The notes beneath the pieces were generated by a model that was given only the letters and a program-made list of their open reading frames with translations, was not told the DNA's origin and searched no databases. Of a stretch of DNA of 64,000 nt, positions 11,573 through 51,305 are shown in pieces. The DNA is taken from contig NZ_JAQKGV010000008.1 in the NCBI RefSeq assembly GCF_028617075.1, positions 1-64,000 on the forward strand, written 5' to 3'. Origin of the DNA: Rubrobacter calidifluminis. Its GTDB lineage: Bacteria; Actinomycetota; Rubrobacteria; Rubrobacterales; Rubrobacteraceae. How positions within the stretch are numbered: the stretch's first letter is position 1; each line of letters opens with the position of its first letter. Position numbers and translations under genes: made by a program.

Positions 11573-12559
11573 CTAGCGCATGCGGTCGGATTTCGCACCA
11601 TCTTCCCCCGGCCTCCGGGCGAGTTCTTCTCGGATCCCGAGCCGTCCCCGGCTGAGCTTCACCCACCCGGCGGTGATCACCATCCCGACGAGCACCGCGG
11701 CGGTCACGAGCAGCCCACCCTCCGGGCCGAACGCCCCGCCGGTCCAGACGTCCGGCCCGCGCTCGCGGCTGGCGAAGAAGACCGCCCCGACCGGAGAGGT
11801 GCCGCTCACCGGTAGTCCGTAGACCACGCCCTCGAAGATGTTCCAGGTTATGTGGATGCCGATCGGGATAGCGAGCTCCCCGGTGAGGACGTACCCGGTT
11901 CCCAGCAGGAGCCCGGCGAGCGCCACGTTCGCCGCGCTGACGGCGGTGGCGTTGGGGTTGAACAGATGCAGGAGACCGAAGAAGGCCGAGGATAGCACCC
12001 AGGCTGCCACCACCGCCCCGCGCTCTCCGATGAAGGGGAGGTTGAGCCCTTCGGCCAGGTTTCTGAGCTGGTATCCGCGGGAGAAGGTCTCTTCGTAGAT
12101 CCCGACACACAGGTAGAGCACGAGGACCGGAAGGAGCGCGGTGGCGAAGGGGAGGCCGGGGAGCAGCGATTCGAGGGTTCCCCGTACCTTCACCCAGCCG
12201 AGTGCGTCCTCGACCGCGAATACGCCGCTGATGAGCGCGGCGCCGAGCACGAGCCCGAAGAGGAGGTCGTAGAACCACCTGCGCCCCAGGTGGAATCCGA
12301 AGTCCTCGAAGCGCCTGCGGTCGAAGAACCGCCCGGCTAGCCACACGCTCACGAGCACCGCCGGCAGGTTGGCGACGAAGCCGACGAGCGAGAGGCCTAT
12401 CCCCCCGCCCCCGGCGGCCCTCCAGGAGACGAAGAGTATCCCGGCGAAGATTCCCGCCAGGATCTGCCAGAGGACGAACTGCAGCAGGAGACGCCACAGC
12501 GCGCGCGGTCGGGAGGTTTCGCCTCCACCCTCCAGAAAGATCCACACCAGCGTCCGCAC
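11573..12559 (-). CDS. CPBP family intramembrane metalloprotease
   Basis: This 328-residue membrane protein has about eight hydrophobic segments and the three CPBP (Abi) motifs: EETFSRG (the EExxxR signature), a helix with FFGLLHLFNPN, and HITWNIFEG. These residues form the metal-binding active site of Rce1-type intramembrane proteases. The substrate is unknown. It lies 6 bases downstream of the peroxiredoxin gene and upstream of lysC on the same strand. The pairing with an antioxidant enzyme may be incidental. Confidence 0.88.
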   Translation of the reverse strand: MRTLVWIFLEGGGETSRPRALWRLLLQFVLWQILAGIFAGILFVSWRAAGGGGIGLSLVGFVANLPAVLVSVWLAGRFFDRRRFEDFGFHLGRRWFYDLLFGLVLGAALISGVFAVEDALGWVKVRGTLESLLPGLPFATALLPVLVLYLCVGIYEETFSRGYQLRNLAEGLNLPFIGERGAVVAAWVLSSAFFGLLHLFNPNATAVSAANVALAGLLLGTGYVLTGELAIPIGIHITWNIFEGVVYGLPVSGTSPVGAVFFASRERGPDVWTGGAFGPEGGLLVTAAVLVGMVITAGWVKLSRGRLGIREELARRPGEDGAKSDRMR

Positions 12560-12565
12560 GACCGG

Positions 12566-13303
12566 CTACCCCGTCTTCTTCATCTCCAGCGTCTTCCGGA
12601 TCGCGCCCCTGTACTCCCGGACCATCCGCTGGTAGCGGTCCACCTCTCTGAACGCCTCCTTGCCTGCAGGGCCCCACCTCCCGAACCGGCGCTTGAGCGC
12701 GACGGTGGCGAAGTGGAGGGCGCGGTAGTAGATCGAAAGCTCTTCCAGGCTCATCGCGGGACGGTCCGGGCGGACGCTCTGCTCGTGGGCCTCCTTCGGC
12801 GTGAGGTGGACCCGGGGCTCCGTCTCCCCGTAGCTGCCGCCTCCGACGAGGCCGTCCAGCGTCGCGAAGACCTCCTCATCCTCCGGACGGTCGGCGAAGT
12901 CCTCCCCGGCGTAGAGGTAGCGGACCGTTCCGGAAGCATCGAGCGCCACGACGGCGGGGACGGCGACGTGCTCCTCCTCGTTCCAGAGTCCCCAGAGCCT
13001 CGCCAGCTCCCCCCGCGCGTCGCTGAGCAGCGGGAACGGAAGGATGAGTCTGGAAGCCATCCCGGCGCCCCGCTCCGGGGGATCGACGCTTATACCGGCG
13101 AGCTGTACCCCGCGCCGCTCGAACTCCCCGAACTTCCTGGCGAAGCTGACCAGCTGCCCGTTGCAGTACGGTCACCAGTCGCCCCGGTAGAAGACGAGCA
13201 CCACAGGTCCCCGCTCGAGCTGTCCCGAGAGGTTCCACGGTTCGCCTCGCTGATCCGGAAGCTCGAAGCAGAACGCCCTCTCCCCGACCTCCAGCCTCGC
13301 CAT
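12566..13303 (-). CDS. peroxiredoxin-like protein, probable selenoprotein (UGA-encoded Sec44)
   Basis: Read from the ATG at 13303, the frame gives a 245-residue AhpC/TSA-type thioredoxin-fold protein. Its redox motif is RGDW-UGA-PYCNGQL; relatives read RGDWCPYC, so UGA (13172-13174) stands exactly at the first cysteine of CxxC. The rest follows without another break (SVDPPERGA, VVALDASGTVRYLY). A SECIS-like hairpin with apical GGUC lies just after the UGA. Ordinary gene callers would report only a fragment from 13060, lacking the active site. The alternative is a TGC-to-TGA error or mutation. The encoded activity would be peroxide or disulfide reduction in the cytoplasm. The selenocysteine machinery is not in this window. 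Confidence 0.75.
13139..13159 (-). promoter_or_regulatory. candidate bacterial SECIS element
   Basis: In the mRNA, taking the U of UGA as base 1, GGUC occupies bases 24-27 as an apical loop closed by the perfect stem AGCU/AGCU. Outside it, GGG (16-18) can pair with C-CC (32, 35-36) after a C-U mismatch and one bulged G. In E. coli fdhF the GGUC loop lies at bases 22-25, so distance and loop agree closely. The fold was done by eye. Confidence 0.6.
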
Positions 13304-13386
13304 CCTTCTCCTCTCCCGCGCTTGCCTTACCGTGAGCGCGTCTATGCTACAACACGAACACTTTTTACCGCACCGGAGGTTAGAGC

Positions 13387-14322: not shown

Positions 14323-14559
14323 TCAGGAGCTGCTCGAAGAGCTGCTCATCATCGAGGAGCTGCTCATGGAGCTGCTGCTCATGGAGCTGCTGCTCATGGA
14401 GCTGCTGCTGGCTGGGCTGCTGCTCGCGGCGCTGCTGGCCGCGCTGCTCGCCCCACCACCCCCGCCACCCCCGCAGGCGGCGAGTACCATGGCGGAGAGC
14501 ACCAGCGCCCCGATCAAAAGAACCACCTTCCTTATCCCTGTTGACGCGGCGCGTCTCAC
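14323..14559 (-). CDS. small Ser-rich lipoprotein with Met-punctuated repeats
   Basis: The best start is GTG at 14559, seven bases after GGGAGG; a start at 14601 would add 14 residues. The 78-residue product has a lipoprotein signal peptide (hydrophobic VVLLIGALVLSAMVL, lipobox LAAC) followed by seven glycines. The rest is almost only Ser and Ala, with an SSSSM unit repeated several times and a final Ser run. It should be membrane-anchored with an extended, low-complexity, probably glycosylated tail. It has its own promoter and terminator. No homologous function is recognised. Confidence 0.75.
   Translation of the reverse strand: MRRAASTGIRKVVLLIGALVLSAMVLAACGGGGGGGASSAASSAASSSPASSSSMSSSSMSSSSMSSSSMMSSSSSSS
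14358..14410 (-). repeat. 15-bp coding repeat in the lipoprotein gene
   Basis: The + strand unit CTCATGGAGCTGCTG recurs about three times in tandem with weaker copies at the edges. It encodes SSSSM on the minus strand. Such an in-frame 15-bp minisatellite can change length without breaking the frame. Confidence 0.8.
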
Positions 14560-14645
14560 CAAACGACCTCCCTCTTGTTTCGTTTTCACGTCCGTTCGCA
14601 ACGCCCGTCTGCTGGCTCAGTATCCTATCGCATCTCGGCGCAGAT

Positions 14646-50975: not shown

Positions 50976-51121
50976 ACCGCCTCCTTCCTCCCACAACGGA
51001 CATCTTGTTAAGGAATGTTAAGTGATCGGGATAACAACAGGGTTACAACGGAAAAAACGTTTGGTAACGACGAGGTAGAGGTTTCAGAGGGGTGATTATG
51101 CTAGGCTTATGTCGTCCGGTG

Positions 51122-51305
51122 AGGGTTGCGGGAGAGAGCCGTCCGGTGGGACGGCCGCCGAAGGTGAAAGGCTCTTTTGGGTGGGGCCGAATCTCTCAGG
51201 CGAAAGGACCGCGGCCGGAGGGCGTCCTGGAGAGACCGGCCCTCGTTGGGCTGGCGCCGACGGGGTAACACTCTCAGGCCTTTGGGACAGGACGGAAAGA
51301 AAAGA
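51122..51305 (+). ncRNA. tandem glycine riboswitch
   Basis: Two gcvT-type aptamers stand in series. The first runs from GCGGGAGAGAG (51129) through GCCGAAGGTGAAAGGCTC to ATCTCTCAGGCGAAAGGACCGC, shown here by its conserved blocks. The second runs from CCTGGAGAGACC (51225) through GGCGCCGACGGGGTAACA to CTCTCAGGCCTTTGGGACAGG. The AGG-GAAAGGAC and GGGACAGG signatures and short linker are diagnostic. It ends about 40 bases before gcvPA, so glycine should switch on the cleavage operon. The control mode (terminator or ribosome-site) is not evident. Confidence 0.95.

Follow-up and report, generated by a model that had tools for sequence, protein, structure and literature searches.

Among the described selenoproteins, those closest to the protein reported here are the peroxiredoxin (Prx)-like thiol:disulfide oxidoreductases, a family with the AhpC-TSA domain (PF00578) and a UxxC or UxxU motif, where U is selenocysteine (Sec), as set out in the parts of two reviews drawn on here (PMC9312934, PMC13188914). 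PrxU (NF040737) likewise has Sec in a Prx fold, but in PrxU the Sec replaces the peroxidatic Cys, the motif being TxxU in the same parts of these reviews. The SelL-related redox proteins (NF040769) have UxxC in an AhpC-TSA domain too. For Rubrobacter xylanophilus, a count of five selenoproteins was given in 2006, as stated in the portion of that report used here (PMC1794560).

The window, by which we mean the whole stretch of 64,000 nucleotides from a contig of Rubrobacter calidifluminis that was analysed, has on its minus strand a frame that runs from 13303 to 12566 and is made up of 43 sense codons including the ATG, a TGA at codon 44, 201 sense codons, and a TAG. This TGA is the sole in-frame interruption and is flanked as VLVFYRGDW-U-PYCNGQL. 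An earlier note on this DNA had described the frame from 13303 as intact save for UGA at codon 44, and when the coordinates and the codon were read again both were right. The features of the gene and its surroundings are as follows.

12566..13303, minus strand: predicted Sec-encoding gene of 245 codons for a Prx-fold UxxC redox protein, ATG at 13303 and TAG at 12568-12566
13172..13174, minus strand: UGA codon 44, predicted to be read as Sec, first residue of UPYC; TGA in relatives
13163..13165, minus strand: codon of Cys47, the putative partner of Sec44, at the Prx peroxidatic Cys position
12956..12958, minus strand: codon of Pro116, invariant in a 33-row alignment and at the place of the Arg in Prx structures
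12569..12817, minus strand: C-terminal extension, residues 163-245, predicted helices, no Pfam match
13308..13312, minus strand: AGGAG, Shine-Dalgarno-like by sequence, 4 nt 5' of the ATG
11573..12559, minus strand: gene for an intramembrane protease of the CPBP/CAAX type, downstream of the Sec gene with 6 bases between them

In 11 of the 33 loci L081-L113, some of which end at contig edges, a relative of the CAAX protease gene follows on the same strand, and because this synteny is found in 11 loci only we do not claim an operon function. Elsewhere in the window there is a tandem glycine riboswitch (51119-51294) with two aptamers of 68.9 and 39.9 bits (gathering threshold 32) and, on the minus strand at 14323-14601, a short lipoprotein-like ORF with Ser/Met-rich repeats at its end (SSMSSSSMSSSS).

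Pfam AhpC-TSA matches residues 6-129 of the window protein with 104.9 bits (cut-off 26), and since the match spans UGA44 the sequences on either side of it are parts of a single domain. The AhpC-TSA domain, the UxxC motif, and the predicted Sec at its first position are what this protein shares with the Prx-like thiol:disulfide oxidoreductases, as far as the consulted parts of the reviews describe them, and by fold and motif it is very probably a further member of the UxxC kind already known. It adds a C-terminal helical extension of about 80 residues, and its match to the family of the reviews is one of fold and motif only. It is not PrxU because it scored 37.8 bits on NF040737 (cut-off 270) and has UxxC and not TxxU, and it is not a member of NF040769, on which it scored 38.1 bits (cut-off 120); a SelL-related protein of the latter kind is encoded in the same genome. 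The window protein stays below the cut-off of every NCBIfam model. Since this is so and the UGA splits the gene, a routine annotation will probably shorten the gene or label it a pseudogene, and the concern that standard annotation would miss the active half of the protein is plausible.

Catalytic peroxiredoxins are defined by PxxxT/SxxC together with a conserved active-site Arg, and this Pro/Thr/Arg set makes the Prx Cys reactive. Thioredoxin-like oxidoreductases have a Pro opposite to their redox motif. The AlphaFold2 model of the window protein (pLDDT 93.6, pTM 0.91, 33 alignment rows) shows a peroxiredoxin-type domain followed by two long predicted helices, 186-208 and 211-244, and the nearest Foldseek folds are peroxiredoxins, namely, BCP4, AhpC2, BcpB, and AhpE. 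The C-terminal extension had no Pfam match at E values up to 5 and is the least familiar part of the protein. In the profile alignment the Thr of TxxC (2ywn) or a Ser (2cx3) is matched by Sec44, the peroxidatic Cys by Cys47, the Prx Pro by Arg40, and the Prx Arg by Pro116, which does not vary among the 33 rows. Compared to BCP/PrxQ and AhpE (PDB 3hjp, 2ywn, 1xxu), the window protein shares the fold and has Cys47 at the peroxidatic position, but it has Sec in place of Thr, Arg in place of Pro, and Pro in place of Arg, besides the extra C-terminal helices, and PxxxT/SxxC with its Arg is not found in RGDWUPYC. Thus, the term peroxiredoxin used in the earlier note fits the fold and not the active site, in which Sec44 is at the Thr/Ser position, Cys47 at the peroxidatic position, and Pro and Arg have been replaced.

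What the alignment points to is a Prx scaffold that carries an oxidoreductase-type UxxC site with a Pro opposite to it. Because the Prx catalytic set is replaced by UxxC and Pro, we read the protein as a thiol:disulfide oxidoreductase, possibly one that also acts as a peroxidase. In the mechanism that we propose, which we regard as somewhat probable and for which we infer both nucleophile and substrate, Sec44 would attack a disulfide or a peroxide and would then form a selenenylsulfide with Cys47, which would be reset by a cellular thiol; the protein would serve as a thiol:disulfide oxidoreductase, or as a thiol-dependent peroxidase, in oxidative stress defence. It is unlikely that the selenoprotein is instead a true peroxiredoxin with Cys47 as the peroxidatic and Sec44 as the resolving residue. 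Peroxiredoxins are indeed the nearest in fold (for AhpE, a TM of 0.87-0.92 by target length), the peroxidatic Cys is matched by Cys47 in the alignment, and the relatives L021/L092 keep Cys47 despite Asp44, but the Pro, Thr, and Arg of Prx have all given way, to Arg40, Sec44, and Pro116, respectively, and the paralogue L078 goes in the opposite direction to L021, as it loses Cys47 and keeps Cys44. Since the relatives include DxxC (L021/L092), CxxD (L078), and SxxD with both residues lost (L034), neither residue 44 nor residue 47 is indispensable to every family member.

The oxidoreductase reading has Sec at residue 44, and the source genome has the machinery for it. On contig C16, selA is followed by selB, whose listed start overlaps selA, and then by tRNA-Sec. 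SelA scored 518.6 bits (cut-off 267.9), SelB 336 bits (cut-off 242.25), and the tRNA-Sec, which has the anticodon TCA, was the sole match above the family cut-off, at 69.7 bits. SelD is encoded on contig C2 (351.6 bits, cut-off 125) by a gene with an internal UGA of its own. Thus selA, selB, selC, and selD, for which the earlier note had proposed that the genome be searched, are all present, the first three in a cluster, and the absence of machinery that would speak against a selenoprotein was not seen. Five UGA genes were found in this genome among the selenoprotein families covered: the window gene, selD, fdhA, a gene for a second FdhA-like molybdoenzyme, and a gene for a SelL-related redoxin. 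FdhA (L182, contig C21) scored 771 bits (cut-off 666.25) and the second molybdoenzyme (L183, contig C3, 63.5-64.3 kb) 166.5 bits, which is below the FdhA cut-off; in both genes a GGUC stands at nt 22 after an internal UGA, either within a hairpin loop or next to one. The SelL-related redoxin (L072/L188, contig C3, about 76.6 kb) has UGA in RHLG-U-IFC, scored 157 bits (cut-off 120), and is encoded directly 3' of a manganese catalase gene. UGA is also an ordinary terminator in 6 of the 11 genes that were checked in the source genome, those for an MTase, DapA, DapB, and ModA, an FHA/acyltransferase gene, and selA, and therefore it is not reassigned throughout the genome.

Across 60 genomes, tRNA-Sec was found in 39 and SelA over its cut-off in 43. 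Eighteen of the 60 have the UGA form, one of them (G028) as a disrupted copy, and of these 16 show SelA (E 1e-40 or better), 14 show tRNA-Sec, and 14 show SelD, one of the scans of the 60 having used stricter filters. The two UGA-form genomes without SelA, G031 and G035, are 82% and 88% complete, and in G002, which is 96% complete and has the UGA form, SelA is present and tRNA-Sec and SelD were not found. All eight genomes that have only a Cys, Asp, or Ser form (G005, G006, G007, G013, G019, G021, G025, and G029) also have SelA. Hence the machinery does not separate Sec from non-Sec forms within the family. Across wider groups it does separate UGA forms from Cys forms: beyond the 60 genomes, selA matched at E 1e-40 or better in 11 UGA-form genomes out of 13, in 10 of them above the cut-off, versus none of seven Cys-form genomes from other groups, a comparison for which we picked 13 UGA-form loci out of the 25 in L081-L113 and 7 loci out of the 47 in L114-L160.

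Matches at E 1.7e-37 or better numbered 29 in the 60 genomes, the source genome included; 17 have a single internal stop, which is always TGA, 11 have none, and one has two TGA and one TAG. A tally of one TGA for distant paralogues was an ordinary terminator in the seven that were read, the exception being L072 with its real internal UGA. When codon 44 was read in distinct DNA stretches by a pattern, there were 31 TGA and 8 TGC, a count that leaves out the disrupted L035, the distant Cys homologues, and L021/L092, L034, and L078, in which codon 44 is neither U nor C or the second Cys is changed. Without this filter, the codon after FYxGDW in the fetched loci was TGA in 33, TGT in 32, TGC in 23, a Ser codon in 8, and GAC (Asp) in one, and neither TAA nor TAG was seen at this position (L036 and L116 do not have the motif). 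The earlier argument that a chance nonsense mutation is unlikely at codon 44 is borne out by these relatives, among which TGA recurs there and neither TAA nor TAG was seen. Of 39 genomes of the order, 18 contain the exact U-P-Y-C-N-G-Q-L pattern with TGA, and of 400 genomes drawn from the phylum of L111, whose contig is labelled Chloroflexi, 8 contain a UGA pattern that is a little longer; the control patterns, read backwards, had no match in either set. In viral contigs four stretches match a pattern and none encodes a relative. The contigs of L102 and L104-L111 are labelled Chloroflexi and that of L103 Acidobacteria, and UGA at codon 44 is kept by relatives in two phyla. A UGA at a redox position with Cys homologues in the same column, as is typical of bacterial selenoproteins, is therefore what this family has. 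Between the window gene and L081, the part 3' of the UGA has 7 nonsynonymous and 10 synonymous changes (dN/dS 0.22). In the two wrong frames dN/dS is 0.94 and 1.41, and 5' of the UGA it is 0.41; too few changes fall in the last 83 codons for these to be judged on their own. In L035, the active site has two UGAs (DWUPDWUPDC) as a result of a 12-base tandem duplication, and with a TAG at the position of Trp107 this copy looks broken.

Just 3' of the UGA there is a candidate SECIS, a hairpin with a conserved loop as expected of a selenoprotein gene.

13139..13158, minus strand: SECIS hairpin, nt 17-36 counted from the U of UGA, GGC-AGCU-[GGUC]-AGCU-UC-GCC
13148..13151, minus strand: apical GGUC, in which G25-U26 is invariant and nt 24 and 27 covary

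Nucleotides 24 and 27 are the third positions of Leu51 and Val52. In 25 distinct UGA forms, a count that excludes six UGA stretches with TTG GCC (L102-L107) whose hairpin differs, nt 16-23, 25-26, 28-31, and 34-36 are invariant, several of them being synonymous sites, and codons 49 (GGG), 50 (CAG), 53 (AGC), and 55 (GCC) do not vary. The loop-closing pair 24/27 is G-C in 21, A-T in 3, and C-G in one, and so is complementary in 25 out of 25, which was matched by 3 of 100000 shuffles that ignore relatedness. All cells of the hairpin are paired (100%, 25 rows), and the cells paired, the cells changed on both sides, and the covariation score were each above all 500 shuffles, relatedness again being ignored; the other two of the five pair measures were equalled by 193 and 191 of the 500. 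Seven of the eight pairs never vary and hence are uninformative. In a tree with several open forks, the A-T rows come from two branches that lie apart, and a third branch carries the C-G row. The C-G pair is that of L090, on a contig labelled Rubrobacter sp.; its genome (G074) came from the search at phylum level that was centred on a genome labelled Chloroflexi. In the eight Cys forms, codons 49, 51, 52, 53, and 55 drift and codon 50 is constant; judged by sequence, the Cys orthologues lose the hairpin, though some, among them L013 and L018, keep most of it. L102-L107 fold, in some of the windows tried, as ACG-GGC-[AGUUG]-GCC-U-CGU. Minimum free energy folding of a 66-base stretch of the window sequence alone was not unusual (z -0.21); the signal came with the alignment of relatives. 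GGTC starts at nt 21-24 after the UGA in four of the five UGA genes of the source genome, against a background in the window of GGTC at nt 18-30 after 116 of 1122 TGA triplets; selD has no GGUC, and the GGUC of the SelL-related gene is off the tip of its best hairpin. The SECIS of E. coli fdhF has the same GGUC apical loop (nt 22-25) on a short closing stem, and its GU at nt 23-24 after the UGA is comparable to that at nt 25-26 here. The fdhF stem has a bulged U on its 5' side, whereas the window hairpin has asymmetric bases on the 3' side and a different stem sequence.

With the machinery present, the UGA conserved, and a SECIS with synonymous covariation 3' of it, the window gene very probably encodes a selenoprotein with Sec at UGA44, which puts the claim of a probable selenoprotein on firmer ground. 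SelB would bring Sec-tRNA(Sec) to UGA44 by binding the GGUC-loop hairpin downstream, and the full protein of 245 residues would be made by read-through. If the UGA were a true stop, the gene would be a decaying pseudogene or two pieces with a restart at Met82 (12566-13060). A 164-codon ORF from ATG 13060 does exist, and the relative L035 with its two UGAs and TAG does look broken, but the restart product would be without the active site, the same codon is kept in two phyla with no UAA or UAG there, and the dN/dS of 0.22 after the UGA and the covarying SECIS speak against it as well, so that we consider a true stop very improbable. Equally improbable is that a near-cognate or reassigned tRNA reads UGA44 as Cys or Trp, for although Cys is residue 44 in 8 distinct orthologous stretches, UGA ends six checked genes including selA, the only tRNA with a TCA anticodon found (ARAGORN scan covering L001 and the window only) is tRNA-Sec, and the conserved hairpin would be left unexplained. 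The pseudogene, restart, and reassigned-UGA readings were set aside on UGA conservation, SECIS covariation, dN/dS, and the UGA terminators elsewhere.

In a tree of 41 rows chosen by us, 8 Cys rows (7 of them different), from Rubrobacteraceae or actinobacterial contigs, lie inside a clade in which the 27 other rows are all Sec. The tree requires 3 changes of state, 2-4 over the bootstraps, with long branches outside and an uncertain root. The simplest reading is that Sec came first and was then lost to Cys, and once to Asp, in genomes that still decode Sec. Besides the plain loss to Cys, apparent exits from Sec are seen in single relatives at codon 44 of L021/L092 (Asp), L034 (Ser), and L078 (Cys, as CxxD). 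The relative G020, which we take to be R. xylanophilus, carries the UGA form of the window gene, and so the family is likely to have been counted already among the selenoproteins of 2006. Based on these findings we tentatively suggest, at somewhat less than an even chance, that this protein belongs to a separate subfamily of two-domain selenoproteins in Rubrobacterales and Chloroflexota, in which a Prx scaffold with three catalytic positions swapped, Sec being at that of Thr, is fused to a new helical hairpin, in which the SECIS is kept through covarying synonymous third positions around the GU, and in which Sec would be the older state, lost to Cys and singly to Asp or Ser in Sec-decoding genomes. 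With Sec or Cys at the same site in genomes that are close relatives, the family lends itself to a natural comparison of the two, and the loop-closing pair of its SECIS is open to test through synonymous changes alone.
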